From assembly GCA_009703055.1 (NCBI GenBank), contig WLGW01000010.1:1-40041 (forward strand): 40,041 nucleotides of DNA, read 5' to 3'. Of the stretch, positions 1 to 16,806 are shown one piece after another; position 1 is the first letter of the stretch, and the number at the start of each line of letters is the position of its first letter. Below the pieces are notes generated by a model that saw only the letters and a program-made list of their open reading frames with translations, was not told where the DNA came from and made no database searches. The translations under genes and the position numbers were made by a program. The DNA comes from Actinomycetota bacterium (GTDB taxonomy: Bacteria; Actinomycetota; Acidimicrobiia; Acidimicrobiales; Ilumatobacteraceae).

Positions 1-1
1 C

Positions 2-2194: not shown

Positions 2195-2209
2195 CCCATA
2201 AGGGTTTGG
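2183..2209 (+). terminator. Hairpin overlapping the MMPL stop codon
   Basis: There is a perfect 11-bp stem, CCAAACCCTTA (2183-2193) and TAAGGGTTTGG (2199-2209), with a 5-nt loop. The TAG stop codon lies at the top of the left arm. The T-run after it is weak (GCGTCTTGCCTT), so it may be an intrinsic terminator or a 3'-end stabilising hairpin between the transporter and topA. Confidence 0.5.
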
Positions 2210-2259
2210 GCGTCTTGCCTTGACAGGGGCCTACTAAATCACCTAACGATGAAAAAGGT

Positions 2260-4998
2260 ATGGCTAAATCACTTGTAATCGTCGAGTCTCCAGCGAAGGC
2301 AAAGACAATCTCTAAATATCTCGGTCCGGAGTTCGATGTTCGTGCTTCTGTGGGCCACGTTGCGGACCTCCCTAGTAAGGGGTTAGCCGTCGATGTTGAG
2401 AATGGTTTTAAGCCTTCTTATGAGTTGACGGAACGCGGTCGCACCGTGGTGAAGGAATTGAAAGCCCTTCTCAAAACCGCAGATGCTCTCTACCTCGCAA
2501 CCGACGAAGACCGCGAGGGCGAGGCCATCTCCTGGCACCTGCTTGAGCATCTCAAGCCCAAGGTGCCCGTGTACCGAATGGTGTTCCATGAGATCAATGA
2601 GAAGTCCATTAAAGAGGCAGTGGAGAACCCACGTGACCTTGACTACGGATTAGTTGATGCCGCCGAAGCCCGCCGCATCCTCGACCGTCTCTATGGATAT
2701 GAGGTATCCCCTGTTCTCTGGCGTCGCGTCAACCGTGGCTTGTCTGCTGGTCGTGTGCAGAGTCCCGCACTGCGCCTTGTGGTGGAACGTGAACGGGAAC
2801 GCATTGCTTTCCGATCAGCTGACTACTTCTCTCTTGAGGCGCTGACCTCTACATCACCCGCATTCACCGCAAAGTTGATTTCGGTCAATGGCACTCGCCT
2901 TGCCACGGGCAAAGACTTTTCTGAACTCGGCGTCGCCAACTCAGACGTTCTCGTGATGAACGGCGGACGTGCAGCGGAACTTGTGAAGGGACTCGAAGGG
3001 AAAGACCTTCTTGTTCGCAGTGTCGATGAAAAGCCATATCGCTCTTCGCCGAAGGCGCCGTTCACCACCAGCACATTGCAGCAAGAGGCCGGACGCAAAC
3101 TGCGTCTCTCTGGTCGTCAAGTTATGAGCGTTGCACAAGGACTCTACGAACGCGGGTTCATTACCTATATGCGTACTGACTCCGTCACGTTGTCTTCAGA
3201 GGCCATCAACGAGATTCGTTCATATGTCGAACGTCAACACGGATCAAAGTATCTGTATCCAAAGGGCCCTCGTACATTCCAAAACAAAGTGAAGAATGCA
3301 CAAGAAGCGCACGAAGCAATTCGTCCGGCACTTCCTTTGCGCTCGCCAGAACAAGTGTCATCAGAACTACGTGGTCAAGAACTCAGCGTGTATCGCCTTA
3401 TCTGGCAGCGAACACTTGCGTCGCAGATGGCAGACACCGACGGCAAGACCACAAGCGTGCGTTTGGGTGTTACTGCATCCGACTCTGAGCGCAGTGATTG
3501 TGAATTCTCTGCAAGCGGCACAACAATTACGTTCCCCGGTTACCGCGCTGCATACGAAGAGACACGCGATGAAGATGACTCGGAATCTGACGACGAGAAG
3601 GCAGCGTTGCTCCCTGATCTGGTGAAGGGACAAAATGTTCCTGTTCAGAAGTACACGGAGATTTCTCACACCACCACACCACCACCGCGCTACACCGAAG
3701 CGTCACTGGTGAAGATGTTGGAAGAGAAAGGTATTGGTCGTCCTTCCACTTGGGCGTCGATCATTTCGCAGATGGTGGATCGTGGCCATTATTTATGGAA
3801 GAAGGGAACGTCTCTTGTCCCGACATGGACTGCTTTTTCTGTGATCCGTTTGCTGGAAGACAACTTTGAATCTCTCGTGGATTATGAGTTCACCGCAGAC
3901 TTGGATAACGATCTTGACTCCATCGCACGCGGTGAGTTGAAAAAGGTTGATTGGCTCACGGCGTTCTACTTCGGCGGTGAGCACGAGCTTGGTTTGCGCA
4001 ACATCGTGACTGCCAACCTTGATTCCATCGACGCTGCTGTGTTGAACACCTTTTTATTAGGTGTTAATACAGAAGATGGCGCAGATGTTGTAGTCAAGCC
4101 CGGCTTGTACGGACCATATGTGCGTAGTGGCGAAATCACTGCGAGTGTGCCCGACACCATGACACCTGATGAGCTCACACTTGATGCTGCAATTGTTTTG
4201 TTGAAGGCACCAAAGGGAGATACTCCGATTGGTGAGTGGGAAGGTTTCCCGGTTTTTGCGAAGTCGGGTCGCTATGGCCCGTACGTGCAGTGGGGCACGA
4301 TGGATGAACCACCGACAGGTCTTGAGAAGCCAAAGATGGCATCGCTCTTCAAGACGATGAATATTGATCGCATCACTTTGGAAGATGCGATTGACCTTCT
4401 GAGACTTCCACGCATGGTGGGTGCAGACCCGGTTGATGGTGAAATCATCACAGCTCAGAATGGAAAATTTGGTCCCTACATTTCCAAGGGCAAAGACAGC
4501 CGTTCATTGCAGAATGAAGAACAACTACTCACAGTGACTCTGGAAGAAGCTCTAGCTCTTCTCGCCACTCCTCGTACCTATGGCAAAGGGAGGGCAGCCG
4601 CCAAGCCCCCTCTGAAAGAATTCGGCAATGATCCGATGAGTGGCCGGCCCGTCATCGGCAAAGAAGGCAAGTTCGGCGACTACATCACCGATGGTGAAAC
4701 CAATGCTGGTCTCACACGTGGTGACCGCATGGAAGTGATGACCAACGAGCGTGCATATGAACTGCTGCAGTTGCGCCGCGAGTACATCGAAGCCAATGGT
4801 GGGCCAAAGAAGAAGCCCAAGGGTGGATCTAGTGGCGTAAAGGCAAAACCAAAGCCAAAAAAACCAAGTGGTTCCGGCGGGGCTGCTGCCAAGAAAGCCC
4901 CAGCGAAAAAGGCCGCAGCTAAGAAGGCACCTGCAAAGAAGAAAGCTGCAGCTAAGAAGGCAGCCGCAAAGCCTGTTTCCAAGGATGAACCGTTCTAG
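2260..4998 (+). CDS. topA: DNA topoisomerase I (type IA)
   Basis: It relaxes negatively supercoiled DNA by transient single-strand cleavage in the cytoplasm. The N-terminus (LVIVESPAKAKTISKYLG) and DEDREGEAISWHLL form the Toprim Mg-binding domain. The catalytic tyrosine is Y303 in GFITYMRTDS, and RPSTWASIIS is another core motif. The C-terminal third carries several repeats of the form GxYGPYV or GKFGPYI (around residues 600-830) in place of zinc fingers, as in other actinobacterial TopA. A basic tail of Lys/Ala/Pro repeats (last 60 residues) probably binds DNA. At 912 aa it is full length. The start is ATG with AAAGG just upstream. The stop codon overlaps the tmk start by one base, so topA and tmk are probably translationally coupled. 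Confidence 0.97.
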   Translation: MAKSLVIVESPAKAKTISKYLGPEFDVRASVGHVADLPSKGLAVDVENGFKPSYELTERGRTVVKELKALLKTADALYLATDEDREGEAISWHLLEHLKPKVPVYRMVFHEINEKSIKEAVENPRDLDYGLVDAAEARRILDRLYGYEVSPVLWRRVNRGLSAGRVQSPALRLVVERERERIAFRSADYFSLEALTSTSPAFTAKLISVNGTRLATGKDFSELGVANSDVLVMNGGRAAELVKGLEGKDLLVRSVDEKPYRSSPKAPFTTSTLQQEAGRKLRLSGRQVMSVAQGLYERGFITYMRTDSVTLSSEAINEIRSYVERQHGSKYLYPKGPRTFQNKVKNAQEAHEAIRPALPLRSPEQVSSELRGQELSVYRLIWQRTLASQMADTDGKTTSVRLGVTASDSERSDCEFSASGTTITFPGYRAAYEETRDEDDSESDDEKAALLPDLVKGQNVPVQKYTEISHTTTPPPRYTEASLVKMLEEKGIGRPSTWASIISQMVDRGHYLWKKGTSLVPTWTAFSVIRLLEDNFESLVDYEFTADLDNDLDSIARGELKKVDWLTAFYFGGEHELGLRNIVTANLDSIDAAVLNTFLLGVNTEDGADVVVKPGLYGPYVRSGEITASVPDTMTPDELTLDAAIVLLKAPKGDTPIGEWEGFPVFAKSGRYGPYVQWGTMDEPPTGLEKPKMASLFKTMNIDRITLEDAIDLLRLPRMVGADPVDGEIITAQNGKFGPYISKGKDSRSLQNEEQLLTVTLEEALALLATPRTYGKGRAAAKPPLKEFGNDPMSGRPVIGKEGKFGDYITDGETNAGLTRGDRMEVMTNERAYELLQLRREYIEANGGPKKKPKGGSSGVKAKPKPKKPSGSGGAAAKKAPAKKAAAKKAPAKKKAAAKKAAAKPVSKDEPF

Positions 4999-5606
4999 TG
5001 GCTACACCTCTATATATAGCGCTAGAGGGCCTCGAGGGATGTGGGAAGAGCACGCACACAAAACGGCTCGGTGAACACCTCAACGCTGTCATCACGCGTG
5101 AACCAGGTGGCACTCGCATTGGCACTTTGCTTCGTGCAATTTTGGCCGACCCCGAGAACAGTGATCTTGATCGGCGCACCGAAGCGTTGCTCATGGCCGC
5201 GGACCGGGCCCAACACATGGCCGAGGTCATCAAGCCGTCACTTGCCCAGGGGCGTCATGTTGTCAGTGACCGTTCCATTTATTCAACGCTCGCGTATCAG
5301 GGGTATGGCCGCCAGCTGGGAACCGAGGCATTGCTATCCATCTCCACATGGGCGCTTCAGGACCGACTCCCCGACTTGGTCATCTACATCGATGTTCCAA
5401 CCGATGTCCTCAATGCTCGGTTGGCCAAGCGAGACCTCGACCGCTTTGAACGCGAAGGGGCTGACTTCTTCGCCCGCATCGCCGAAGGATTCCGCGAGCT
5501 TCGCGCTGCTGACCCCGAACGATGGATCATCATCGATGGAACTGTTCCCAAGGACGATGTGGAAGCTGCCATCCGAACTCAGGTGAACGACAGACTCAAT
5601 AAGTAA
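4998..5606 (+). CDS. tmk: Thymidylate kinase
   Basis: It phosphorylates dTMP to dTDP with ATP, an essential step of dTTP synthesis. The P-loop is GLEGCGKST (residues 11-19), followed by the TMP-binding TREPGGT motif and DRSIYSTLAYQGYGR. The lid region is Arg-rich (LAKRDLDRFEREG). At 202 aa it is normal length. It uses a GTG start that overlaps the topA stop (TAGTG). Gene order topA-tmk-holB is common in Actinobacteria and groups DNA topology, precursor supply and the polymerase clamp loader. Confidence 0.96.
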   Translation: MATPLYIALEGLEGCGKSTHTKRLGEHLNAVITREPGGTRIGTLLRAILADPENSDLDRRTEALLMAADRAQHMAEVIKPSLAQGRHVVSDRSIYSTLAYQGYGRQLGTEALLSISTWALQDRLPDLVIYIDVPTDVLNARLAKRDLDRFEREGADFFARIAEGFRELRAADPERWIIIDGTVPKDDVEAAIRTQVNDRLNK

Positions 5607-5609
5607 CCT
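5604..5609 (+). promoter_or_regulatory. Putative leaderless -10 (TAACCT) for holB
   Basis: TAACCT matches TANNNT and lies exactly 6 nt before the GTG of holB. It overlaps the tmk stop codon. The same spacing recurs at many genes in this window and supports both an internal promoter and the GTG start. Confidence 0.45.
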
Positions 5610-5615
5610 CTCATC

Positions 5616-6707
5616 GTGACTTCGGTGTGGGATTCAGTACTTGGGCAAGACCGTGCGGTCGACCATTTGCAACACAGCGTGGTGAATCCTGTGCATGCGT
5701 ACCTCCTCGTGGGGCCTGAAGGGTGCGGAAAAGAAGAAGCTGCTCGTGCACTAGCTGGTGTTCTTCTTGCTGGGAATGACGATAACTCTGACCGCAACAA
5801 CGACATGGCAGTTCGCGGCACGCATCCCGACATTCACGAAGTGAAGCGCGAAGGTGCGTCCATTCTGAAAGACCAGGCAGAAGAAGTCATCAAGATTGCG
5901 TCCACTACCCCGAAGGAAGGCAATCGCAAAGCGATCATCATGCACGAGGTGCACCTCATGCAGCCATCGGCTGCGGCGCGACTTCTCAAAACAGTTGAAG
6001 AACCACCTACTGGCGTTTTCTTTGTGATGCTTGCAGAACAAGTAGATGAATCACTCGTCACTATTGCGTCGCGATGCATGACAATTCACTTTGGCCCACT
6101 TGACCCTGCAGTGATTGAACATGTGTTGACATCTGAGGGCGTGAAACTCGATGTTGCGGCGGTTGCTGCCAAGTCTGCGCACGGAAGTCTCACTCGTGGT
6201 CGTCTTCTCGCAGCAGACAAACAACTTGCCCATCGTCGTGAGTTCTTTGCAAACATTCCACGACGCATTGATGGCACCGGCGCAACTGTTGCTGCCATCG
6301 TCGAACAGATTCTCTCTCTCATTGATGACTCTGTTGCACCTCTACAGCAACGACACGAACAAGAGATTGTGGATACAGAAAAAACACTTGCACTCATGGG
6401 AGTGAAGCGCGGTGGAAAGAAAGCGCTTGAAGATAAACACAAGCGAGAAATCCGTCGTTTCCGCACTGACGAGCTTCGCAATGGTCTGACAGAAGTTGCC
6501 AGTGTGTACCGCGACGAACTTGCGCGTAATGAACACATTCACCGGCCCGAGGGATACGTCACTGCGATTCATCGTTTGCATGAAGCAATGCGACGCTTAG
6601 GTCTTAATGTGAATGAAGCAATCTTGTTGCGCGACCTCATTTGGTCGTTGCCATCACCCTCTGCAGATGCTGCTCTGCAATTCGTTCTCGAAGGAAGTCA
6701 TGAATAA
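5616..6707 (+). CDS. holB: DNA polymerase III delta' subunit (clamp loader)
   Basis: It is a AAA+ clamp-loader component that helps load the sliding clamp. The N-terminus (WDSVLGQDRAVDHL, then HAYLLVGPEGCGKEEAA) shows a degenerate P-loop in which the usual Thr/Ser after GK is Glu40, which fits a non-hydrolysing delta' subunit. IASRC is the sensor/SRC motif. The four-Cys zinc module normally found just before the HPD motif is missing here: the stretch before GTHPDIHEV contains no cysteine. At 363 aa it is close to family length. GTG is used as start. It follows tmk by 9 nt and overlaps the next gene by 8 bp. Confidence 0.88.
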   Translation: MTSVWDSVLGQDRAVDHLQHSVVNPVHAYLLVGPEGCGKEEAARALAGVLLAGNDDNSDRNNDMAVRGTHPDIHEVKREGASILKDQAEEVIKIASTTPKEGNRKAIIMHEVHLMQPSAAARLLKTVEEPPTGVFFVMLAEQVDESLVTIASRCMTIHFGPLDPAVIEHVLTSEGVKLDVAAVAAKSAHGSLTRGRLLAADKQLAHRREFFANIPRRIDGTGATVAAIVEQILSLIDDSVAPLQQRHEQEIVDTEKTLALMGVKRGGKKALEDKHKREIRRFRTDELRNGLTEVASVYRDELARNEHIHRPEGYVTAIHRLHEAMRRLGLNVNEAILLRDLIWSLPSPSADAALQFVLEGSHE

Positions 6708-7110
6708 CGCATTTTGGAATCGCATGGCGGTTGTTGTCGGACTCTTTCTCGGCTTTGCAGGAGTCATGCACTTCGTGAGTCCGCAATTCTTCAACGACAT
6801 TGTTCCGCCATGGCTTCCCCCTTCAGAATCGTTCTGGACATATGCCAGTGGCGTTGTCGAACTTGTTGTGGCGTACTTGCTGCTGCGTCCATCGACTCGT
6901 CGCGTTGGCGCTATTGCCACCATTTGGCTGCTCATCGGCGTGTACCCAGCGAACCTCTACATGGCATGGGACTGGCGCAATGAACCATTCAGCGATCAGC
7001 TTGTTTCGTATGGTCGCTTGCCATTCCAGTTCCTCTTTATATGGGTCGCATGGAAGATTGCCCAGGCGCACTCCGACGCCGATAAACCAAAGGCCCCCGG
7101 CGACATCTAG
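6700..7110 (+). CDS. DoxX-like small membrane protein
   Basis: The protein has 136 aa with about four hydrophobic segments. It includes GLFLGFAGVMHFVSPQFFNDIVPPWLP near the N-terminus and a GVVELVVAYLLL helix, which resemble the DoxX/DoxD-like integral membrane family. The biochemical role of such proteins is mostly unknown; some are linked to redox processes. I chose the ATG at 6700 because AAGGAAG lies at good ribosome-binding distance, and the resulting overlap with the holB end fits an operon. The frame stays open upstream to 6613, but that part is hydrophilic, cysteine-rich and inside holB. Confidence 0.75.
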   Translation: MNNAFWNRMAVVVGLFLGFAGVMHFVSPQFFNDIVPPWLPPSESFWTYASGVVELVVAYLLLRPSTRRVGAIATIWLLIGVYPANLYMAWDWRNEPFSDQLVSYGRLPFQFLFIWVAWKIAQAHSDADKPKAPGDI

Positions 7111-7117
7111 AAAGTTT

Positions 7118-7153
7118 TGTACAAGACTGCCAACTGTTTTGTACAGTTGTACA
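7118..7153 (+). promoter_or_regulatory. TGTACA operator repeats and promoter of toxin-antitoxin operon
   Basis: Three copies of the palindrome TGTACA stand at 7118-7123, 7140-7145 and 7148-7153, the last ending 1 nt before the antitoxin ATG. A TANNNT hexamer (TACAGT, 7142-7147) sits between the last two copies, 7 nt before the ATG. Antitoxins of the Phd/YefM type usually repress their own operon by binding palindromes at the promoter, so these are likely the autoregulatory sites. Confidence 0.55.
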
Positions 7154-7154
7154 C

Positions 7155-7409
7155 ATGGCCAATATGTCGATCAGTCAAGCCCGAGAGCAATTGCCAGCCG
7201 TTATTGAGTTGTGCCAAACCGAAGCCGTCATTCTTGAGCGATACGGAAAACCTCAAGCTGTCATCATCAGTTATGAGCGATACGACGAACTGATGACGGC
7301 CCTTGAAGACATTGAGGATCTTGAGGCAATTGCCGAGATTGAGGCCGACATCGAGAAGAACGGGACTATTCCCTGGGAAGAAGTACGGCGGGACTTGGGC
7401 ATCGAATGA
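7155..7409 (+). CDS. Type II antitoxin, Phd/YefM family
   Basis: The 84-aa protein starts MANMSISQAREQLPAVIELC and continues with AVILERYGKPQAVIISYERYDEL, the standard Phd/YefM DNA-binding fold. An acidic helical tail (EDIEDLEAIAEIEADIE, ending PWEEVRRDLGIE) would wrap and neutralise the toxin. It overlaps the toxin gene by 4 bp (ATGA), so the two are co-translated. No Shine-Dalgarno is visible, and transcription probably begins at or next to the ATG. Confidence 0.9.
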   Translation: MANMSISQAREQLPAVIELCQTEAVILERYGKPQAVIISYERYDELMTALEDIEDLEAIAEIEADIEKNGTIPWEEVRRDLGIE

Positions 7410-7669
7410 CTCGCTACACAGTTGAGTTTTCGCGAGCAGCAGAGAAGGCACTCGCCCAACTAGAGCCACAGATACGCCGCCGGGTGGATGGAGCAATAAA
7501 GGTTCTTTCCATTGATCCGTATCCACCAAACTCGCGGCCGGTGAAGGGCACGAGCACATTCCGCTTACGTGCTAGCGATTATCGAATCATCTATCGAGTG
7601 AATCACGGTGTGCTTACGGTGATCATCTTTGACATCGGGCACCGGCGCAATATTTATCGCAAGTTCTAG
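7406..7669 (+). CDS. Type II toxin, RelE/ParE superfamily
   Basis: The 87-aa basic protein has the RelE fold signature: TRYTVEFSRAAEKALAQLEPQIRRRV at the N-terminus, then RPVKGTSTFRLRASDYRIIYRV and a final VIIFDIGHRRNIYRKF. The conserved Arg, Tyr and His-Arg residues near the C-terminus match RelE-type mRNA interferases, which cut mRNA in the ribosomal A site. ParE-like gyrase inhibition is less likely given the GHRRxIY ending. It is coupled to the antitoxin by an ATGA overlap and lies 47 bp upstream of the tRNA-Thr gene used as an integration site. Confidence 0.88.
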   Translation: MTRYTVEFSRAAEKALAQLEPQIRRRVDGAIKVLSIDPYPPNSRPVKGTSTFRLRASDYRIIYRVNHGVLTVIIFDIGHRRNIYRKF

Positions 7670-7716
7670 ACAGTGATGAGCCAGTCGAATCGGTCGGTAA
7701 AGTTGAACTCCTACCC

Positions 7717-7792
7717 GCCCAGGTAGCTCAGTCGGTAGAGCAACGCACTCGTAATGCGTAGGTCGTGAGTTCGATTCTCATCTTGGGCTCCA
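7717..7792 (+). tRNA. tRNA-Thr (anticodon CGU)
   Basis: The cloverleaf is complete. The acceptor arm GCCCAGG pairs with CTTGGGC (one G-U), the D arm is GCTC/GAGC, the anticodon stem ACGCA/TGCGT encloses loop CTCGTAA with anticodon CGT at 7750-7752, and the T arm GTGAG/CTCAT carries the TTCGATT loop. The discriminator is T and CCA is encoded. CGU reads the Thr codon ACG. The 3' 48 nt are repeated at 10631-10678, which marks this gene as an integration target. Confidence 0.95.
7745..7792 (+). repeat. att-like direct repeat, copy 1 (tRNA-Thr 3' part)
   Basis: These 48 bp, from the anticodon stem to the CCA end of tRNA-Thr, are identical to 10631-10678. Tyrosine-recombinase elements commonly use this part of a tRNA gene as attB and restore the gene on entry. 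This copy belongs to the intact gene. Confidence 0.85.
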
Positions 7793-7803
7793 GTTTCTAT
7801 AGT

Positions 7804-7809
7804 TAGAGT
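7804..7809 (+). promoter_or_regulatory. Putative leaderless -10 (TAGAGT)
   Basis: TAGAGT fits TANNNT and lies exactly 6 nt before the ATG at 7816. Confidence 0.45.
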
Positions 7810-7815
7810 TCTCAC

Positions 7816-8103
7816 ATGTCAGATGAAAACGCATTTCCAAGTTTTCCTCCGCCGCCTCCACCGCCCCCACCATCGCGACAAGAGAAACGTAGATCGCCAC
7901 TTGTGCTTAGTGGAATGATTTTTGGGATTTCCCCTCTTCTCTTCAGCCTTGTGGCTTCAATTTTCGTTGACAACGCATTCAACGAAAGTACGGCCCTGGG
8001 CTCTACTCCCTTGCTTATGTTTTTCACTTTGCCAATCGGTTTTGTCATGGTCATAGTCGGACTCGCCACCCGCACTCGAAACGTAACTAACCGAAGGAGA
8101 TAA
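7816..8103 (+). CDS. Small proline-rich membrane protein, unknown function
   Basis: The 95-aa protein begins with a cytoplasmic-type stretch containing nine consecutive prolines (from about residue 11), then a short basic segment (RQEKRRSP) and two hydrophobic segments (about 30-52 and 66-86), ending in a basic tail. It resembles the many small DUF4190-like membrane proteins of Actinobacteria with Pro-rich N-termini, but I cannot assign a family. It is the first gene after the tRNA inside the first repeat-bounded segment. Confidence 0.65.
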   Translation: MSDENAFPSFPPPPPPPPPSRQEKRRSPLVLSGMIFGISPLLFSLVASIFVDNAFNESTALGSTPLLMFFTLPIGFVMVIVGLATRTRNVTNRRR

Positions 8104-8147
8104 CTTCTTCAGTCTGTTTCTCGTATGAAAGTGATAATCACTTGTTG

Positions 8148-8183
8148 TGCGTAGGTCAGGGGTTCGATTCCCCGCTTGAACTC
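8148..8183 (+). repeat. Decayed tRNA 3' fragment (old att scar)
   Basis: TGCGTAGGTC is followed by a T-arm-like GGGG-TTCGATT-CCCC hairpin and CTTGAACTC. It aligns without gaps to the tRNA-Thr 3' half, with identity in the variable loop and T loop and changes in the T stem that still allow pairing. No 5' half is present, so it is not a tRNA gene. It could descend from a related tRNA carried by an earlier element. Confidence 0.55.
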
Positions 8184-8197
8184 TGATAGTTGGCGAA

Positions 8198-10537
8198 TCA
8201 CCACGTGTGAATATGAGTGCCCGCAGAAAGCGCGTAAATGCTTCCAGTCGGAAGCTCTAGTTCACATTCAGTTCCATTCGGAATATCACATGTAATGGTG
8301 CCTACACCATTCTCAAGAGACCATTCCACGCCAATACGTCCGTTTGGTCCATCATGATGCGTGCGAGCCCACGAAATACCAGCACCAGGTCGTGGTGCCA
8401 CCCGTACGCGCCGGTACCCGGGCTCTTGAATAGTTAACCCAGCAACGTATTGATGAAGAAAGGAAATCACCGCGCCTTTGCTGTAGTGATTCAAACTATG
8501 AGTTGCCTTATCGCCGACAATGCCGTCCCAGTCTTCCCAAATTGTTGAATATTGATTTGTCATGTACATCCATGACGGTTCTGTGTCCTGAAAAAGCAGG
8601 GAATATGCGGTGTCTAAGTGACCATGATCAGCAAGCACAGGAAGAAGCATCGGAGTTGCAAGAAATCCTGTTCCAAGATGCATATCTGCCTCATTAATCA
8701 ATTGAACAAGATCATCGGCGGTTCGCTGACGTAGCGAGTCTGGAACAAGTCCAAAAGCAAGCGCACGACATAAATTCGCTTGTGTACGCGGCATCAAGGC
8801 TCCTTCGTCATCAATGAATTCAGCACGCCATGCATCAAGGACATTTGCAGCTAATTCTGAATACCGTTGTGCTTCTTCATCCTTCCGAAGAAGCAAGCTG
8901 ATTTGTGCAAGTTGGTCAGCCGAGCGATACAAATACGCAGTTGCTACTGCGCCGTGATCCTGATTGCCAAGACTTGCAACATCCGTTTCAATATCAGCGC
9001 CTGGTTCTAACCACTCGCCGTAATGCCAACCGCTATCCCATAAGAATCGTTCATGAGGCAGCGGATTCGGCCGTTGCGCTTCTCGTAATGGATGACGCCG
9101 CCCCTCGGCTCTACGTGCGGCGAATTCAACCCATTGAGTCATCGACTCGAATTGCGCTGCAAGCATGTCAGTTCGCGCACTTGCCCGGTATAACTCCCAC
9201 GGAACATGTACTGCGGCATCACCCCATCCGGATGAACCGTGACTTCCTCGCCATACTGGCGCACCAGGAGATGGATCAGGGACAATGCTCGTTACTTTAC
9301 CATCGGGAAATTGATCAGCTGCGAGATCTCGCATCCACTTTGCTGACCAATCAAATACGTCATATAGATACGAAGCTGTCTCAACATAAATCTGCCAGTC
9401 ACCCGTCCATCCTGATCGCTCCCGTGTTGGACAGTCAGTAGGAATCTCGCAAGCATTTCCACGAAAACTCCAATCGGCAGCACGATGAAGTTGATTGATG
9501 CGCTCATCAGAACACTCAAAATCTCCCACTCGTTGAAGATCAGTGTGGACTACGACACTGACTATTGATGCAGAATCAAGAACACCATCAATTCCCTCGA
9601 CTTCCACAAAACGAAAACCTTTAGTGCTGTGCCGCGGTTCGAACACTGTGTTGTCACCTGCCGAATAAACACGATCTGTTTGGAAGGGAACATCATGAGG
9701 CTCCGAAAATGCTGCATCAGCAACATTCGACTGCGTCACTTCGCCTGCGGAGTTTGTCCATTCTCCATATTTCAACGTGACTTCGTTACCCTCAGGTCCC
9801 AGTCCAGACAATCTCACCCAGCCATTGCTGTTTTGACCAAAATCAACCACATGTCGTAGCGGTGCAATTTGAGTAATTGAAACTGGTGACAGTTCTTCTA
9901 TCCGTCGCACTGGCGGACCAAGAACCTCACACAAGTTGTCCATCGAATAATCAGCAACAGTGACTTGGTCCCAAGATGTGCGATCCGTACCTGCGACGCA
10001 CCAACCATTAACTCTTCTACGTAAATCATGCGTTTCACCGGCAATGAGATCTGCGGCAAGAATGTGGCTGGGTGACGAGCACCACGTGTCGTTTGTACTA
10101 ACTCTGATCTGTTGGCCATCCGCTAGCTCAATAATTAGCTCTGCAAGAAAAGAAACGTTGGGCCCATATGCGTCAATCTCTCTGATCACTCCGTGTTGAC
10201 CCCGCCACCATCCATCACTCAGAATTGCACCTATTGCATTGTTCCCAACATGCAGCAGATCAGTCACAACAAACGCATGCACTTGTAGATGCTTGCGGTA
10301 CGCGGTAAACCCAGGAGCTAGTTCGATGTCACCAACCCTCGATCCATTGATAAACGGTTCATAAACTCCATGTGCTGTCGCCCACAAGCGGGCAGAGACG
10401 ACATGGGAAGGTACGACAAACTCGCGTGCGAGGTGATACGCAGGACGATGCATCGCTGGCGAATCCACTGATTCAACAGGCTCAATCCATGAAGCTGTGA
10501 ATGCGGGCAGCCTGCTCGAACTACTACCTTCTGTCAT
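8198..10537 (-). CDS. Alpha-L-rhamnosidase (glycoside hydrolase family 78)
   Basis: It is predicted to remove terminal alpha-L-rhamnose from plant glycosides or polysaccharides. The order matches GH78: N-terminal beta-sandwich modules with YHLAREFVVP and ATAHGVYEPFINGSRVGD, a beta domain with VVDFGQNSNGWVRL, then an (alpha/alpha)6 barrel with DCPTRERSGWTGDWQ (from about residue 368; catalytic-region carboxylates) and SGWGDAAVHVPWELY, and a C-terminal beta domain. No signal peptide is seen, so it acts on imported substrates. I chose the ATG at 10537 (779 aa) because TATTCT lies exactly 6 nt upstream; the frame stays open to a further ATG at 10609. It lies between two copies of the tRNA-Thr repeat, which suggests acquired cargo. 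No sugar transporter is adjacent. Confidence 0.88.
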   Translation of the reverse strand: MTEGSSSSRLPAFTASWIEPVESVDSPAMHRPAYHLAREFVVPSHVVSARLWATAHGVYEPFINGSRVGDIELAPGFTAYRKHLQVHAFVVTDLLHVGNNAIGAILSDGWWRGQHGVIREIDAYGPNVSFLAELIIELADGQQIRVSTNDTWCSSPSHILAADLIAGETHDLRRRVNGWCVAGTDRTSWDQVTVADYSMDNLCEVLGPPVRRIEELSPVSITQIAPLRHVVDFGQNSNGWVRLSGLGPEGNEVTLKYGEWTNSAGEVTQSNVADAAFSEPHDVPFQTDRVYSAGDNTVFEPRHSTKGFRFVEVEGIDGVLDSASIVSVVVHTDLQRVGDFECSDERINQLHRAADWSFRGNACEIPTDCPTRERSGWTGDWQIYVETASYLYDVFDWSAKWMRDLAADQFPDGKVTSIVPDPSPGAPVWRGSHGSSGWGDAAVHVPWELYRASARTDMLAAQFESMTQWVEFAARRAEGRRHPLREAQRPNPLPHERFLWDSGWHYGEWLEPGADIETDVASLGNQDHGAVATAYLYRSADQLAQISLLLRKDEEAQRYSELAANVLDAWRAEFIDDEGALMPRTQANLCRALAFGLVPDSLRQRTADDLVQLINEADMHLGTGFLATPMLLPVLADHGHLDTAYSLLFQDTEPSWMYMTNQYSTIWEDWDGIVGDKATHSLNHYSKGAVISFLHQYVAGLTIQEPGYRRVRVAPRPGAGISWARTHHDGPNGRIGVEWSLENGVGTITCDIPNGTECELELPTGSIYALSAGTHIHTW

Positions 10538-10543
10538 AGGCCA

Positions 10544-10549
10544 AGAATA
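10544..10549 (-). promoter_or_regulatory. Putative leaderless -10 (TATTCT) for the rhamnosidase
   Basis: On the minus strand TATTCT is followed by 6 nt and then the ATG at 10537. This favours a start 24 codons inside the longest open frame. Confidence 0.45.
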
Positions 10550-10630
10550 GTTTGCTCCACCCAGATCTTCAGATGCACAGCTTTGATTTGAAAATGTGAA
10601 TCTTCGCATAGCGCGGTATCTCAGCCAAAG

Positions 10631-10678
10631 GCACTCGTAATGCGTAGGTCGTGAGTTCGATTCTCATCTTGGGCTCCA
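10631..10678 (+). repeat. att-like direct repeat, copy 2 (exact tRNA-Thr 3' end)
   Basis: This is a 48-bp exact copy of 7745-7792, including the CCA end. The sequence before it (from about 10610) keeps only scraps of a tRNA 5' half (GGTATCTCAGCC) and cannot form the D or acceptor arms, so it is not a working tRNA. It marks the far end of an inserted segment of about 2.9 kb. Confidence 0.85.
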
Positions 10679-10757
10679 TTTGCAGCAATGGTCTCGAGAG
10701 TCAAAGGAAGCCTCGAACATCCTCTAAGAAAACTTAGGCATCACTTTCTGTCTGTGC

Positions 10758-10763
10758 CAATAT
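10758..10763 (+). promoter_or_regulatory. Putative leaderless -10 (CAATAT)
   Basis: CAATAT lies exactly 6 nt before the ATG at 10770, with no Shine-Dalgarno in between. Confidence 0.4.
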
Positions 10764-10769
10764 CTCGCA

Positions 10770-11249
10770 ATGAAGGTTCTACGAATACTTGTTTTGACAG
10801 TGACAATCGCCGGACTGACTTCGTGCAGTGCATCAAGCACTTCCGACACATCAACCACGGCAACTACCGTTGCGGCAGTTGCCGCTCCAGATTGTTCGAA
10901 GGCAGCGATTGAGATGGGTGTAGGTGAGCCGACTGACATCTTCAATTGCTCAGGAGACTGGGCAGCAATCCAACCCAACTCCTATGTGGGTAGTTGTAAC
11001 GAATGTGAGTCAGTTTGGCTTTACAAATGGGAAGCGGGAGCCTGGAATCTTAAGGGTGTAGCTAACCAGTACGGAACACTCATGCCAAACGGCGGAAACA
11101 TGGGCATGACTGGACTTCTTAAAGACAAAATCTATACAGAGAACCTGACCGAGTATCCGTCCCAGGAGGTCGCATGCGAATTATGGCCGACTAATCGCTA
11201 CCCAGAAAATGTTTCGCTTACTGGTTGTTCACCAGATCCTGAAATGTAA
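10770..11249 (+). CDS. Lipoprotein of a four-cysteine family (paralogue A)
   Basis: The 159-aa protein has a lipoprotein signal peptide with lipobox LTSC (C19), then a Ser/Thr/Ala linker (residues 20-40). The mature domain has C42-x17-C60-x3-WA, a short CNEC segment, a WEAGAW turn, and a C-terminal VACELW...TGC pattern with C136-x16-C153. The same spacing is found in the lipoproteins at 16807 and 24439, so the three are paralogues of an extracellular domain that I do not recognise. The cysteines probably form disulphides. It starts a lipoprotein pair just after the second tRNA repeat. Confidence 0.75.
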   Translation: MKVLRILVLTVTIAGLTSCSASSTSDTSTTATTVAAVAAPDCSKAAIEMGVGEPTDIFNCSGDWAAIQPNSYVGSCNECESVWLYKWEAGAWNLKGVANQYGTLMPNGGNMGMTGLLKDKIYTENLTEYPSQEVACELWPTNRYPENVSLTGCSPDPEM

Positions 11250-11252
11250 CTT
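11247..11252 (+). promoter_or_regulatory. Putative leaderless -10 (TAACTT)
   Basis: TAACTT overlaps the stop codon of the preceding gene and lies exactly 6 nt before GTG 11259. This favours GTG over the ATG that follows it directly. Confidence 0.4.
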
Positions 11253-11258
11253 CTTGGG

Positions 11259-11825
11259 GTGATGTTCTTCAGAGCAGTTGTCGTTACCGGAATCTTGAGT
11301 GCTCTTGTAGCAGGCTGCAGCGCAGATTCCCAGAGTGCGACTTCGACCACCATTGCAGTGACTACAACAACTCAAACTCCGAGTTCTCCCTCTACCTCAG
11401 TCCAAATTGGCGGACCCACTTCTTCGGACATTCCGCCTTTTCCTACTTCGATTGATGGCTACGACCTAACCGGTCCGGTCCAAACCGATGAGATACGCGT
11501 TTTTGATTTTGCTTATGGAACGCCTTTCTCATTTGAGAGTCACCCGAATAGCTGCGGACATCAAATGTGGGTTGCACGATGGCGATCCTTGAACACCGAC
11601 GTACTTTTGCGTGGAGCCGCTCTGCTTTACGATGCAAATGAAGTTGAATACCCCACCACAAACATCAGTTCTCATGCACCATCCCTGTACGGATACATCA
11701 GTGGATTCGGATGTGAAAGGCCTGTCGTTGTCTGGGGGACGGTCATGAATGGAAACAGAGCAAATCTGGTCGATGTCACCATTGAATGGCAGTATTACGA
11801 CTTTGATGCAAGCGTTGACGGTTGA
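11259..11825 (+). CDS. Putative lipoprotein, unknown function
   Basis: The 188-aa protein has a signal peptide with lipobox LVAGC (C20) and a long Thr/Ser/Pro linker (residues 22-60), a common arrangement for actinobacterial lipoproteins that span the cell wall. The mature domain (about 65-188) contains two cysteines (in SCGHQMWVARW and GFGCERPVVVWG), alternating hydrophobic strands and aromatic residues suggesting a beta-sandwich. No known family is recognised. The start is GTG, chosen from promoter spacing; the ATG one codon later is the alternative. Confidence 0.7.
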   Translation: MMFFRAVVVTGILSALVAGCSADSQSATSTTIAVTTTTQTPSSPSTSVQIGGPTSSDIPPFPTSIDGYDLTGPVQTDEIRVFDFAYGTPFSFESHPNSCGHQMWVARWRSLNTDVLLRGAALLYDANEVEYPTTNISSHAPSLYGYISGFGCERPVVVWGTVMNGNRANLVDVTIEWQYYDFDASVDG

Positions 11826-11852
11826 TTGATAATCACAATCACAAGACAATTG

Positions 11853-11868
11853 CGGCAACAGCTTGCCG
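11853..11868. terminator. Small hairpin between convergent genes
   Basis: CGGCAA and TTGCCG pair across a CAGC loop between the end of the lipoprotein gene and the convergent gene at 11924. There is no clear T-run, so termination is only suggested by position. Confidence 0.3.
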
Positions 11869-11923
11869 TAAGACTATTTGTCAGAACAGTCTCTAATCAT
11901 CAACTAGGACTACGCAACATTCC

Positions 11924-12571
11924 TCAGAATTCAGGATCACATGTGCTTGAGTTTGCATTGTTCATCAGATTCGTTCTTAAGACCATTCGTTCTCCACTTG
12001 AGTATCGGATGGACAAAGAATCAAAACGCTGTTCCTTGTCTGAGAATATGAACATGCTTGCGGCAACGCACAAACTTTTGCCAGGTTCAAATGCATCTTG
12101 ATCTCTAAACAACGATGTTTCTATCCACAACGCACCATTGTTGTTAGAAATGTCAGTGACAAACGAAATCCATGTTGTGCTTCCAAAATTGGTGTCAACA
12201 TAGTTTTTAAACTCGCTCAAAGAGACACTAAATGATTGCGTCTCTATTGATGTCGTGACCACTGGCTTGTCTGAAAGAGACTTTGACGAAGATGTGATCC
12301 CCGTTTCAGACGGAGAAATGATGCTTCCAATCACAGATAGAAGTACAAAAATTCCAGCGATTGATCCAATTACTAATTTCCGCTTTTCTTTTGGAATTCG
12401 CACGATCAAGGCCTTGATAATCAAGAAAGGTCCAAAGACAACCCATTTCACAATCGTTTGTTGTTTCACAGCGGAGACTTGTCTTGGTCTGCGCGGAATC
12501 TCTTCTCTATTCTCGTCCATCAAAAAATCGTAGTACGGATGCCAGCGAACTAATTCAAAAGAATCTTCCAT
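11924..12571 (-). CDS. Membrane-anchored protein with extracytoplasmic domain, unknown
   Basis: The 215-aa protein has a hydrophilic N-terminal segment (DSFELVRWHPYYDFLMDENREEIPRRPRQ), two hydrophobic helices (about 40-57 and 67-84) split by a basic loop IPKEKRK, then a Ser/Thr-rich linker and a C-terminal domain of about 110 residues with two cysteines (LCVAAS and STCDPEF), presumably outside the cell. I chose the ATG at 12571 because AGGAGG lies 13 nt upstream; the frame can be extended 8 codons to a TTG that contains that site. The family is not recognised. It lies inside the second repeat-bounded segment and is convergent with the lipoprotein pair. Confidence 0.6.
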   Translation of the reverse strand: MEDSFELVRWHPYYDFLMDENREEIPRRPRQVSAVKQQTIVKWVVFGPFLIIKALIVRIPKEKRKLVIGSIAGIFVLLSVIGSIISPSETGITSSSKSLSDKPVVTTSIETQSFSVSLSEFKNYVDTNFGSTTWISFVTDISNNNGALWIETSLFRDQDAFEPGKSLCVAASMFIFSDKEQRFDSLSIRYSSGERMVLRTNLMNNANSSTCDPEF

Positions 12572-12613
12572 CGGGCGATCGATACCTCCTGGCAACTGAG
12601 ATTTCTTACATGT

Positions 12614-12647
12614 GGGTCGTGAGTTCGATTCTCTTCATGGGGCTCCA
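12614..12647 (+). repeat. att-like direct repeat, copy 3 (decayed tRNA-Thr 3' end)
   Basis: GGGTCGTGAGTTCGATTCTC is followed, after a short changed stretch, by GGGGCTCCA, matching the T arm and 3' end of tRNA-Thr with one indel. The next bases (TGTGCAGCAAGGG) also match those after copy 2 (TTTGCAGCAATGG) with two changes, so homology between copies 2 and 3 extends past the tRNA. It closes a second segment of about 2 kb. Confidence 0.65.
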
Positions 12648-12860
12648 TGTGCAGCAAGGGTTGCCTGACATTCAGTTCTGTAACACCACTGTCACAAGCG
12701 ATTGGGATGTCGGAAATTGTCAAGTCACCGAATGACTACGATTAACCACCTAGCGACAACTCAACAGTTCATTAATCCAATAATGAGCAAACAGGTTTTC
12801 GGCGATGTTTCTGCGATACATTCCCGAACTGGCGAAGATTGACCTCAAGAGAGGACCACT
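12648..12860 (+). other. Intergenic stretch after the third repeat
   Basis: This region of about 210 bp shows no convincing gene. A frame running to 12735 and ending NTTVTSDWDVGNCQVTE could be the remnant of an extracellular protein end. The ribosome-binding site of the next gene (GAGAGGA) is at its right end. Confidence 0.3.
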
Positions 12861-14816
12861 GTGACAACATCAAAACTATTCATTCGTTTGATTTTTTCCC
12901 TTACGGTTGCATCAATCCTGACTCAATTAGGGTGGACTCCGCCTAGTAGCGCAGCAACAACCGTTACCGGCGACAAAGCGACTGTCACCCAGATGCTGGA
13001 GAGTTCTGACTGCTTTCGAATTGCCTCAGGTGCATTGACATGTAATTCCGGTTCAGGTTCCGCAGTTACTGAAGTAGAGCAAGGCTCCTTGCTTGGAAAG
13101 TCAATCTCTGATTTCGAAGGCCTCCATAACGGAACGTACTGTGCGGTTACATCAGATGGATCGGCCCATTGCTGGGGTAATAACAACTCTGCGGCCGTTG
13201 GCGACAACACGGTTACGAATAGAACATCACCGGTGACAGTTACCTCAACTGGTGTCTTGTCCGGGGTCGCATTGCAGAAAATATCCACCCGTGATTGGGG
13301 GACGTGCGCTATCTCAACAACATCGAAGATGTATTGCTGGGGTTGGCAGGGAGGCTCAAAGAACAATCTAAAAATTGGCTCGAGCAACGAATACGTTCCA
13401 CCAACACTTGTATCTGATTCAGGATTAAGTTCGCTCTCTTGGAAAGACGTCCAGCTCTCAGGTGGCAATACCAGTGGTGGTGTCTGCGGGCTGACCACAT
13501 CGAACGAAGTCAAGTGTTGGAGACTGAATATGTGGTCAAATGCCACTGCGGTCTACTCCGTCGCAATTCCCACACTGACAAATGGAGAAACCCTCGAGAG
13601 CATCGAGTCGGTATATGCAAATTCAACAGGCTGTGTCACCAGCACCCTGGGTGCCGTCTACTGCTGGGGTTTTGCATCCCAATTTCCGGAGTTGACTGGC
13701 ATCGACACAACTAGAGCTATTCGCGTTCCATTTTCAACAGCTGCCGTGGACATCTTTCTGGCATACGGAAATGTCTGTGCGGTCCTAGCAACCGGTTCTG
13801 TGGAATGCATGGGTGATCGATATTACGACTACGTATCTCTGGGCGTGCGTGGCAACCCAATAGTCCGCATCGGTGGTACAGGGCCAAACGGCATATTGGT
13901 ATCCCAGATGGAGAGCAATCGTTTTCTATCCCAAGACGGTCGCCTTTGGTCTGCACCCAATTCGAGTGACGTGACTCGGCCTGCAACAATCGGCGAGGAA
14001 GTCACCCCGAAGACTCCAACAGTTGTCATCAGTTCTCTCGAATTAGAGGACTATTTACAAGGCAACAATTGTTCTGCGAGAACTTCCACGTTTAGTGCCT
14101 GTATCTCTCTGCAGGTGAGTTCACCGGGATCGAACACGTATCCCAAATATGCGGTGGACGTCTTCGCAAATTCTTCAGGCAGTTCCTTCATCGCAACTGC
14201 GGCAGACCTTAGCCAGAGAGACTCTTCTCTAGTGGTTGACGGCCGTAATTCCTATTGGGTTCGTATCAGAGCAACCAACTTCTACGGGACTACGACTTCT
14301 TCTCTCTTTAAGGTGGACAAGATTTACACATCACCATCGATCGATATAAGGGGATATGGTGCATCGACTGGTGTGGGTTACCTCGATCTTTACGCCAACT
14401 ACAACTCCGATAATGGCGGGATGAATCAAGTAGTAGTCGTTGAATTCCAACGTCGCGGAACATCAAGTTGGACCAACATATCTAGCGCATCCACTCGGAA
14501 TCTCAAGACCTCCAGTAGTTACACCGTCCGAGCGACAATCGTTACTCCCATGGGTACAGCAACCGATTCAAGGTCACTAAGTACTCCAAACCTGATGCGC
14601 AAGGTTCGCCTGTATCGAAACTCGCGAATCCTTGTTTCTAATGCATTCAGAATCGACTCGCCAGGAAAGCGAACATGGTCCGGATTCTCTGGATGTCAGA
14701 TTGTGGGCAAGTACCTCATCACAAGATCCACTTCAACATGCAGGCTCAAACTAAATATTGCCGCAGCCAAGGGATATGTTGCTAGCACTTGGACGTATAC
14801 GACCAGCCTCTCATGA
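12861..14816 (+). CDS. Secreted RCC1-repeat protein with C-terminal Cys-pair module
   Basis: The 651-aa exported protein has a signal peptide ending near PPSSAA (about residue 32). Residues about 45-370 contain RCC1-like repeats with paired cysteines, such as TYCAVTSDGSAHCWGNNN and GTCAISTTSKMYCWGWQG, which fold as a beta-propeller. Residues about 380-580 look like fibronectin-type strands (YWVRIRATNFYGTTTSS). The last 50 residues hold C612-x14-C627 followed by a beta-rich end, a module shared with four other secreted proteins here. The GTG start has GAGAGGA at proper distance. RCC1 propellers usually mediate binding; the ligand is unknown. It opens the run of exported proteins after the tRNA repeats. 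Confidence 0.8.
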   Translation: MTTSKLFIRLIFSLTVASILTQLGWTPPSSAATTVTGDKATVTQMLESSDCFRIASGALTCNSGSGSAVTEVEQGSLLGKSISDFEGLHNGTYCAVTSDGSAHCWGNNNSAAVGDNTVTNRTSPVTVTSTGVLSGVALQKISTRDWGTCAISTTSKMYCWGWQGGSKNNLKIGSSNEYVPPTLVSDSGLSSLSWKDVQLSGGNTSGGVCGLTTSNEVKCWRLNMWSNATAVYSVAIPTLTNGETLESIESVYANSTGCVTSTLGAVYCWGFASQFPELTGIDTTRAIRVPFSTAAVDIFLAYGNVCAVLATGSVECMGDRYYDYVSLGVRGNPIVRIGGTGPNGILVSQMESNRFLSQDGRLWSAPNSSDVTRPATIGEEVTPKTPTVVISSLELEDYLQGNNCSARTSTFSACISLQVSSPGSNTYPKYAVDVFANSSGSSFIATAADLSQRDSSLVVDGRNSYWVRIRATNFYGTTTSSLFKVDKIYTSPSIDIRGYGASTGVGYLDLYANYNSDNGGMNQVVVVEFQRRGTSSWTNISSASTRNLKTSSSYTVRATIVTPMGTATDSRSLSTPNLMRKVRLYRNSRILVSNAFRIDSPGKRTWSGFSGCQIVGKYLITRSTSTCRLKLNIAAAKGYVASTWTYTTSLS

Positions 14817-14834
14817 GCGAACATACCTCGATCA

Positions 14835-14870
14835 CTCCTGCCGAAGCCTTGAATCGGCAGTCGGCAGGAG
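14835..14870 (+). other. Switchable hairpin before gene at 14941
   Basis: CTCCTGCCGA (14835-14844) pairs perfectly with TCGGCAGGAG (14861-14870). The 7-bp core CTGCCGA can instead pair with an earlier TCGGCAG (14854-14860), because TCGGCAG is tandemly duplicated. Two mutually exclusive hairpins are therefore possible. No T-run follows, so it may be an attenuator-like or mRNA-end structure rather than a simple terminator. Confidence 0.35.
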
Positions 14871-14940
14871 GAAATTGAGAAGCGATGCAAAATGGGTATC
14901 TAAATTAGAATTCAACTCGTTGTTCAGAGGGGGTAGAACG

Positions 14941-15753
14941 ATGGAAATCGCAGGACGTTATGACTGGACTCTTCCCAGTGATTGGCGTGAGATAGGCGGG
15001 CTTTATGACCTTGCCGTTGACTACGCCTTGGATTTTTTCCACAACACCCGAGATGTTCAGTTCACGACCTCAGAATTGAGCGAAGTGGCTCACTCAATTG
15101 ATTTCATTCTTCAAGTTCCACCCAATCTGCGCCCACCGAGTTTCTCCAAAATCGACTCTTTTGTGCGTGAGCTGTACGGCATCAAGTTCAAAAAAGGGCG
15201 TGCTGCAATTGGCCTAGCACTCAATCCAATCGGCACAGTTCTGAGTCTCGGCGTCGGCCTAATGAAGAAGATGGAACTCGACGCAGCAGATTTAGTAACG
15301 CCCTTTCTCAAGGAATGGCAAGAGAAGATTGTCCATCAGCAGATCGAGAGGTGCATTGATTCAAAAATTAGCGCTGGAGCTAATCCACTATTTGACCAAC
15401 AACTGGGACGCCTCATCTACTGGTATGCATTCCAGGAGAGAGTGCTAATTGATTGTTCGCCAAATCTTCAACTCACCCCCGACTTAGCCAATGATGCAAT
15501 GAGGAGACACCGGATCACCTTGGAAGAGACTTACAACTCATCTGCCAAGAGATTTGACATTTGGTACGCATCTGATTTTTGCAAAGACGACGAAGAAGCC
15601 CAGCGCAAAATGAAAAGCTATCTACGAAAGATGGACCGTGGAGGCAAGATTGGAAAGGTCGAACGTGCGTGGTCGCAGTATGTTCAGATCATTGAAAGAC
15701 GTCATCAATATGTTCACTGGTATGCCGAACGAATGAATTGGGCTCGCAACTAA
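14941..15753 (+). CDS. Hypothetical cytoplasmic protein
   Basis: The 270-aa protein starts at an ATG preceded by AGAGGGGG; a longer frame exists upstream but overlaps the previous gene and the hairpin. It is mostly helical and rich in Trp, Tyr and Lys (for example SDWREIGGLYDLAVDYALDFF and RAWSQYVQIIERRHQYVHWYAERM). Residues about 90-110 (RAAIGLALNPIGTVLSLGVGLM) are moderately hydrophobic but short for a membrane span. No signal peptide and no recognised motif are seen. It stands alone among exported proteins and is flanked by hairpins, suggesting its own transcript. Confidence 0.65.
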   Translation: MEIAGRYDWTLPSDWREIGGLYDLAVDYALDFFHNTRDVQFTTSELSEVAHSIDFILQVPPNLRPPSFSKIDSFVRELYGIKFKKGRAAIGLALNPIGTVLSLGVGLMKKMELDAADLVTPFLKEWQEKIVHQQIERCIDSKISAGANPLFDQQLGRLIYWYAFQERVLIDCSPNLQLTPDLANDAMRRHRITLEETYNSSAKRFDIWYASDFCKDDEEAQRKMKSYLRKMDRGGKIGKVERAWSQYVQIIERRHQYVHWYAERMNWARN

Positions 15754-15760
15754 GATCTCA

Positions 15761-15784
15761 AATCAGTCATCTGAATGACTGATT
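15761..15784 (+). terminator. Hairpin after gene at 14941
   Basis: AATCAGTCAT and ATGACTGATT form a perfect 10-bp stem with loop CTGA, 7 nt after the stop codon. A second, weaker hairpin (CGGTTT/AAACCG, 15806-15824, T-rich loop) follows. The position fits transcription termination, though no T-run follows the first stem directly. Confidence 0.45.
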
Positions 15785-15847
15785 CCTAAAGTTCTCAAAA
15801 CCCATCGGTTTCTTTTTAAAACCGAGAGATGAGATAACCAATTCCTC

Positions 15848-15853
15848 TACTGT
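15848..15853 (+). promoter_or_regulatory. Putative leaderless -10 (TACTGT)
   Basis: TACTGT fits TANNNT and lies 7 nt before the ATG at 15861. Confidence 0.35.
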
Positions 15854-15860
15854 CCAATAC

Positions 15861-16760: not shown

Positions 16761-16794
16761 AGAACGATCACAATCAAGGAGCTCTCGTTTGGTG

Positions 16795-16800: not shown

Positions 16801-16806
16801 GTATCG

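Follow-up and report, generated by a model that had tools for sequence, protein, structure and literature searches.

Tandem integrase-less cassettes behind a tRNA-Thr gene in Ilumatobacteraceae: a probable additive flexible genomic island

Several described systems resemble the locus analyzed here, an array of small gene cassettes behind the tRNA-Thr(CGU) gene of a freshwater actinobacterium belonging to the Ilumatobacteraceae. According to the accessible text of the sources, fGI1 of Ca. Actinomarinales is an additive flexible genomic island (fGI) for which exchange between genera was reported (PMC7771536), and fGI-2 of Ca. Methylopumilus has the final 20 bp of a tRNA repeated, with islands from 330 bp to 42 kb whose function is mostly unknown (PMC10872708). 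In Dehalococcoides, 15 ssrA islands without an integration module were proposed to be mobilized with their neighbors; the same source names cis-mobilizable elements, accretion, and sublocations II and III of tRNA genes (PMC3146451). Because the accessible parts of these three papers describe the same design, the array belongs to a design that is already known, and Ilumatobacteraceae is a new example of it. A literature search of limited extent retrieved nothing on genomic islands with tRNA in Ilumatobacter or Ilumatobacteraceae.

The window, i.e., the whole stretch of 40,041 nt that was analyzed (contig WLGW01000010.1 of GCA_009703055.1), is contig C2 of a 1.58-Mb assembly that is 78.5% complete. 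The comparison sets comprised 32 genomes of the genus and 221 genomes of the family, with one genome per species; relatives are referred to by genome (G) and contig (C) number.

Tandem segments behind the tRNA gene

A single tRNA gene, tRNA-Thr(CGT), was found in the window by ARAGORN at 7717-7792 on the forward strand. As noticed in an earlier sequence-only reading of this DNA, its 3' part is repeated exactly over 48 bp (7745-7792 and 10631-10678). The three bases preceding the two copies differ once (AAC and AAG), and a chance match of this length in 40 kb has a negligible probability (approximately 8e8 pairs over 4^48, by simple arithmetic). Only the first copy is a full tRNA, as had also been stated, and the copy at 10631 lacks a complete 5' half. 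Two additional copies of the tRNA-Thr(CGU) 3' end were found at 8139-8183 (degenerate) and 12612-12647. The four copies, at 7745, 8139, 10631, and 12612, are all in direct orientation and are referred to as attachment-site (att) copies. The features of the array are as follows.

7717-7792, forward strand: tRNA-Thr(CGT), the insertion site (ARAGORN); its 3' part, 7745-7792, is the left att copy (attL) of the exact repeat
7816-8103, forward strand: gene of cassette 1, for a 95-aa proline-rich, predicted small membrane protein; starts 24 nt past the tRNA, no Pfam family over the cut-off
8139-8183, forward strand: degenerate att copy between cassettes 1 and 2; 75.6% identical to the resident tRNA, 39/48 to the AGGGG T-arm allele of sister species
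8198-10537, reverse strand: gene of cassette 2, for an alpha-L-rhamnosidase of 779 aa from its conserved start (Pfam PF17389, PF08531, PF05592, and PF17390)
10631-10678, forward strand: att copy closing cassette 2, the exact repeat of 7745-7792
10679-12611, no strand assigned: cassette 3, with open reading frames (ORFs) at 10770-11249 (forward), 11259-11825 (forward), and 11924-12595 (reverse), none with a Pfam match
12612-12647, forward strand: att remnant closing cassette 3 (tRNA nt 42-76, 89%)

The three segments after the tRNA (7793-8138, 8184-10630, and 10679-12611) measure 0.39, 2.49, and 1.97 kb, including their closing copies. The extra copies at 8139 and 12612 therefore divide the locus into three or more tandem segments, in place of the single 2.9-kb insert that had been proposed. 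The inserted DNA stood, but the single unit did not: 7793-10678 consists of two tandem cassettes with an older att remnant between them, and the array runs to 12647. Beyond this position, neither an att profile run on bases 1-20000 nor a BLAST search of the whole genome with the tRNA gave another att copy.

Each cassette of the window ends in a copy of the T-arm and acceptor end of the tRNA. Very probably, 7793-12647 comprises three or more integrase-less cassettes that lie in tandem and were inserted successively at the 3' end of tRNA-Thr(CGU). The interpretation that fits best is an additive fGI of integrase-less cassettes, inserted by site-specific recombination.

Exchange of the rhamnosidase cassette and empty sites

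The rhamnosidase, which we take to be of the GH78 type, was first listed as a frame of 803 aa extending to 10609. The MTE start is common to all four close copies described below, and in-frame stops occur upstream of it in G008 and G017. A promoter located necessarily inside the att copy was considered and dropped, as the conserved start codon at 10537 is 93 bp away from att.

In a protein search, rhamnosidase matches at E <= 1e-100 were obtained in seven of the 221 family genomes, four of them close (91-100%) and three at 37-38%. The close copies belong to the window, G030, G017, and G008 (4/32 genus genomes) and lie in three different neighborhoods; all four are located behind tRNA-Thr(CGT), between copies of the tRNA 3' end. 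In G008, the rhamnosidase forms the third cassette and follows a different one, and in G017 it is directly behind the tRNA. The tRNA of G030 is followed by the small protein, a degenerate att copy (matching window 8139-8183), the rhamnosidase, an exact att copy, and a second homologue of the small protein (46%). A cassette carrying both the rhamnosidase and the small membrane protein, as proposed from the sequence alone, thus describes the window and G030, but in G008 and G017 the rhamnosidase has no small protein beside it. Cassette homology between species begins and ends at att copies or within a few nucleotides of them. The block common to the window and G030 corresponds to window 7690-10691 (92.4%), and that of G008 and G017 covers 2.5 kb (94.3%). 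A partial fifth case is contig G114:C312, in which 31 rhamnosidase residues (87%) follow the small protein with no att between them, the match to 8139-8183 being absent from this contig. G114 is filed in another genus, but this contig carries DNA like that of genus g1 and groups with the present genus on the holB tree; it may be misbinned.

The cassette and the core genes upstream of the tRNA gave different relationships. Nucleotide identities of the cassette interior were 92.6% (window-G030), 92.1% (window-G008), 90.8% (window-G017), 88.9% (G030-G008), 87.6% (G030-G017), and 94.7% (G008-G017). For tmk, holB, and doxX, the window and G008 were 91.6, 91.4, and 94.1% identical, and all other pairs were at 69-77%, including window-G030 (72.7, 69.4, and 73.2%) and G008-G017 (76.6, 73.2, and 73.3%). 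The core quartet joined the window with G008, and the approximately unbiased (AU) test rejected the cassette topology (p = 2.9e-60) and the remaining topology (p = 8.3e-8). The cassette quartet joined the window with G030 and G008 with G017, and the core topology (p = 6.5e-4) and the third topology (p = 9.6e-4) were rejected. As the two topologies conflict, plain vertical descent of the rhamnosidase cassette does not fit. The rhamnosidase trees and the identities in four species show exchange between lineages; by this comparison the rhamnosidase cassette has moved between species, and the identity of its mover is what we infer in the next section.

Empty and differently filled sites were also observed in relatives, a comparison that had been suggested from the sequence alone. 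G027 shows a single tRNA end, followed by 13 nt and then by a flank matching G020 at 89.2% over 1128 bp. In G020, the same tRNA and flank enclose 988 bp with an att copy inside; this insert comprises a small-protein cassette, an att copy identical to its own tRNA over 47 nt, and 557 bp common to G024. In G024 and G020, the flank is common from the 13th nucleotide past that att copy, and the DNA before it differs. Cassettes have thus been added or lost between G027 and G020, where one site is empty, and between G024 and G020. Likewise, the common flank of G016 and G008 resumes at the seventh nucleotide past the last att copy of G008. The pattern named beforehand as speaking against an insertion, in which all close relatives carry the segment and none has a single repeat, was not seen: besides the single end of G027, the search gave no close match to the rhamnosidase in 28 of the 32 genus genomes, many of which are incomplete (62-97%).

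Candidate integrases and alternative explanations

The arrangement presumably arose through a tyrosine integrase that recognizes the T-arm and acceptor part of the tRNA and recombines the attP of a cassette with it. Each insertion would rebuild the tRNA with the 3' end of the cassette, and the old 3' end would be displaced downstream as attR. Since the array contains no integrase, the enzyme would be supplied in trans, probably by integrase-bearing elements visiting the same tRNA, and neighboring cassettes with a decayed att between them could move as one. The earlier proposal of insertion at a tRNA 3' end with attL- and attR-like repeats agrees with the empty site, the four occupied sites, and the incongruent trees, but the anatomy that it gave was incomplete.

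Integrases tend to prefer particular sublocations of tRNA genes. Because the att copies agreed with their best tRNA allele at 94% over nt 47-76 and at 81% over nt 29-46, the data point to exchange in the T-arm and acceptor part; this comparison covered 15 copies, some of them related by descent (window and G030), with the 12612 copy omitted as it needs a gap. The T-arm allele is AGGGG in the 8139 copy and GTGAG in the resident tRNA. A copy in G005 is identical to the tRNA end found in genus g2 and not to the tRNA of G005 itself; its contig has no gene common to the other loci and could be misbinned. These two copies suggest 3' ends that were imported or displaced from other alleles. On the holB tree (34 rows), the four T-arm alleles need eight changes (minimum 3; shuffled mean 12.1; as low in 0/200). 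This tree was derived from 37 loci, of which G018, G024, and G020 were omitted for having too little holB, and G114 fills 41% of the columns. The alleles appear clustered yet switching, which fits occasional replacement and is no proof of it.

PF00589 matches occurred in all 32 genus genomes, and few of the integrases seen in this PF00589 search, which did not extend to transposases, were non-Xer-like. No PF00589 match was located on the window contig, and Pfam scans of the island ORFs gave no recombination or transfer domain (no search was aimed at relaxases). PF00589 was matched on only one of the genus contigs listed with a whole tRNA-Thr(CGT), G021:C119, where a 372-aa integrase precedes a small helix-turn-helix-like gene with no Pfam match. 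This contig may come from another strain or bin because G021 has the tRNA on a second contig too. With the G021 integrase as the query, matches were obtained in 35 of the 221 family genomes. Eight matches, mostly the best-scoring, were examined: four adjoin tRNA-Thr(CGT), namely, those in G021 (372 aa), G050 (45% identical), G094 (34%, 1.8 kb from the tRNA), and G113 (broken); two adjoin tRNA-Arg(CCT) (G064 and G024), and two have no tRNA in the stretch. The genus integrases in G008:C32 and G026:C14 had no tRNA in the stretch seen. From these positions, mobilization in trans by integrases of the G021/G050/G094/G113 type is the explanation that we favor. Beside the tRNA-Thr integrase of G050 lies a gene (7106-8068) for a 320-aa protein without a Pfam match, which may, as a guess, be a replication initiator.

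Other candidates were rejected. The XerC-like gene of the window's genome was not retained as a site-specific helper, since its dprA-like neighborhood gives no evidence for this role; the rejection covers a specific agent and not a generic recombinase. A serine recombinase was discarded because PF00239 was matched in one of the 32 genus genomes (G012), where no tRNA-Thr(CGT) locus was seen; the window's genome has no PF00239 match. The notion of tRNA-Thr(CGT) as a unique site was also dropped, as several genus genomes contain partial matches to the 3' end of tRNA-Arg(CCT), possibly a second hot spot. In G024:C75, an integrase adjoins tRNA-Arg(CCT), and a copy of the end of that tRNA lies 8.4 kb away. 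A PF00589 match shares contig G007:C57 with tRNA-Val(TAC), possibly a third tRNA site in the genus.

Several observations weigh against insertion by an integrase acting in trans. The integrase search elsewhere in the genome, suggested by the sequence-only reading, was unsuccessful: the sole PF00589 match in the window's genome, which is incomplete as stated, is XerC-like and lies at another locus beside dprA-like and sigma-factor-like genes. The link between the integrase subfamily and tRNA-Thr(CGT) draws on few cases (4/8). In IMG/VR, neither of two T-arm alleles had a match to its exact 28-nt att core (0 each). At the repeats themselves, the 8139 copy is degenerate and may be inactive, the right att copy of G017 lacks the last 5 nt, and the 557-bp stretch in the G020 insert is not closed by an att copy.

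Among the alternatives, each segment could have arrived as a full integrase-bearing element and be an immobile deletion derivative now. Decayed integrases at the site in G113 and G086 and the erosion of some att copies are in favor of such decayed islands; in the att-bounded island of G086, a 131-aa ORF is only the C-terminal part of an integrase. However, none of the four species has an integrase in the rhamnosidase cassette, although the cassette moved after their divergence, and decay would need recurring identical deletion end points, or the deletion first and movement of the shortened form later. We regard this explanation as unlikely. The G086 island (G086:C194) spans 8.5 kb and carries an MmeI-type restriction enzyme and an FtsK-gamma protein along with the integrase remnant; its direct repeat extends 13 nt beyond the tRNA end.

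Less likely again is homologous recombination alone, in which linear DNA would cross over in the tRNA region and the 48-bp repeat with no integrase. The missing integrase agrees with this explanation, as does the short left homology: the tRNA and approximately 25 bp upstream are 97-99% identical between species (97.0%/101 for window-G017 and 99.0%/104 for window-G016), and the window-G030 block starts at 7690, slightly upstream of the tRNA. At the right ends in G008 and G017, however, only approximately 24-35 bp of exact att sequence is shared and the flanks are approximately 70-77% identical; moreover, integrases occur at the same tRNA, and the copies are 3' ends in direct orientation. Vertical inheritance with loss, local tRNA duplication, or assembly error is highly improbable, above all for the rhamnosidase cassette, since its data are incompatible with the core tree in the AU tests and the order of small protein, att, rhamnosidase, and att was also assembled in G030. 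In favor of this reading, the small-protein cassette, to which it may still apply, lies behind the tRNA in several species, and G053 has a full second tRNA-Thr.

Spread of the site, its surroundings, and known systems

A whole-length match to tRNA-Thr(CGT) (75-76 nt, >=93%) was found in at least 22 of the 32 genus genomes, and at least ten of these have an extra 3'-end copy, eight on the tRNA contig and two (G021 and G005) on another; the counts are lower bounds, with several contigs ending a few hundred bases from the tRNA. A second copy was present on the contig in 8 of 15 stretches from other genera (G053, G048, G086, G099, G187, G118, G141, and G117), most of the 15 having been picked for already showing two copies. 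The cargo in other genera includes methyltransferases, a sulfatase, a glycosyltransferase, and an MmeI-type restriction enzyme, and one cassette of G008 carries a PfkB kinase and a nucleotidase. In G053 (locus 6591-7493), the second copy is a complete tRNA-Thr(CGT) and not a 3' fragment, with a methyltransferase gene between the two tRNAs.

The cassette 1 product, read from its sequence as a membrane protein, has 13 homologues in 12 of the 221 family genomes. All except one start (or, for partial ones, begin to match) 24-160 nt behind the end of tRNA-Thr(CGT) or an att copy and in the same direction; the exception, in G169, is on a 6.6-kb contig without tRNA-Thr. Given its position behind the tRNA in several species, the small-protein cassette may be old, and its spacing behind the tRNA allows the guess that it is expressed from the tRNA promoter. 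A promoter and terminator scan gave three promoter-like sites (shuffle mean 3.7) and seven terminator-like sites (2.6 in shuffles), one of the seven being the 3' arm of the tRNA itself; these sites were not used as evidence.

A wider view would make tRNA-Thr(CGU) by tmk-holB a family-wide, integron-like capture platform, served by one dedicated trans-acting integrase lineage that shuttles recombinase-less cassettes. The T-arm and acceptor end of the tRNA would be rewritten at each insertion, the T-arm alleles of the tRNA and of buried att copies would record the order and source of insertions, and the tRNA-proximal cassette would be expressed from the tRNA promoter. Taken jointly, these claims are doubtful.

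The array lies within a larger variable island of approximately 20 kb, which extends to about position 28.1 kb of the window and has conserved flanks.

4998-6707, forward strand: conserved left flank, with the genes for thymidylate kinase (4998-5606) and the DNA polymerase III delta' subunit (5616-6707) (Pfam PF02223 and PF13177)
12648-28156, no strand assigned: remaining variable island, delimited by Pfam and homology blocks; no further att copy found
28157-29689, reverse strand: conserved right flank, a 510-aa gene ending the island; orthologues end the island in relatives, with 90.4% nucleotide identity to G008

At the equivalent location in relatives, from tmk-holB-doxX-tRNA-Thr to the 510-aa gene, the island varies in length and content. 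Upstream of tRNA-Thr(CGT), tmk and/or holB were found in the genus and in stretches of g2, g3, g5, g8, g23, g24, and g27, and not in those of g6 and g11. A DNA search of the other 31 genus genomes with 10679-14800 gave nothing at E <= 1e-10 except a 50-bp att match in G021. The first ORF of cassette 3 is a distant relative (approximately 24-27%) of a 260-280-aa gene near the island end in relatives. Repeat proteins occupy 12861-27950 (RCC1-like, DUF5122 beta-propeller, ALK/LTK glycine-rich, and peptidoglycan-binding by Pfam). Directly upstream of the tRNA (7155-7669) is a phd/parE-like toxin-antitoxin pair, which is patchy in relatives (G016, G008, G029, and G019).

As an example of single-gene cassettes that lack an integrase and move from species to species at a single tRNA, the locus is precise and testable. 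Confirmation of an integrase acting in trans would help account for the continued gene gain of small-genome freshwater actinobacteria despite the few non-Xer-like integrases seen in this genus by the PF00589 search.

The following comparisons are with the systems as given in the accessible parts of the sources. The fGI1 of Ca. Actinomarinales belongs to a marine order and has five tRNAs in one envelope-polysaccharide island (PMC7771536), whereas the present case has one tRNA-Thr(CGU) beside tmk-holB in Ilumatobacteraceae, an empty site, a cassette whose incongruence was tested, and candidate integrases. The fGI-2 of Ca. Methylopumilus is similarly an additive island of a freshwater, genome-streamlined host, but it is located at tRNA-Lys in Methylophilaceae (PMC10872708). 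As in the ssrA islands of Dehalococcoides, the segments lie in tandem behind one RNA gene and each closes in a 3'-end repeat; those islands use the tmRNA gene and a serine integrase (PMC3146451), in contrast to tRNA-Thr and, presumably, tyrosine integrases here. Flanked by att copies and without a recombination or transfer domain in the Pfam scans, the cassettes have the makeup of cis-mobilizable elements. Tycheposons, too, carry cargo and reside at tRNA genes in aquatic bacteria, but, as described in PMC10872708, they measure 4-200 kb and have a tyrosine recombinase; the window cassettes measure 0.4-2.5 kb and carry none, and other elements at these sites, e.g., in G021 and G050, have their own. 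Clusters of attC sites lacking integron-integrases (CALIN) are likewise cassette arrays without a local integrase and can be mobilized in trans (PMC11389934); their bounding repeats are attC sites, as in integrons, whereas those of the present array are tRNA 3' ends.

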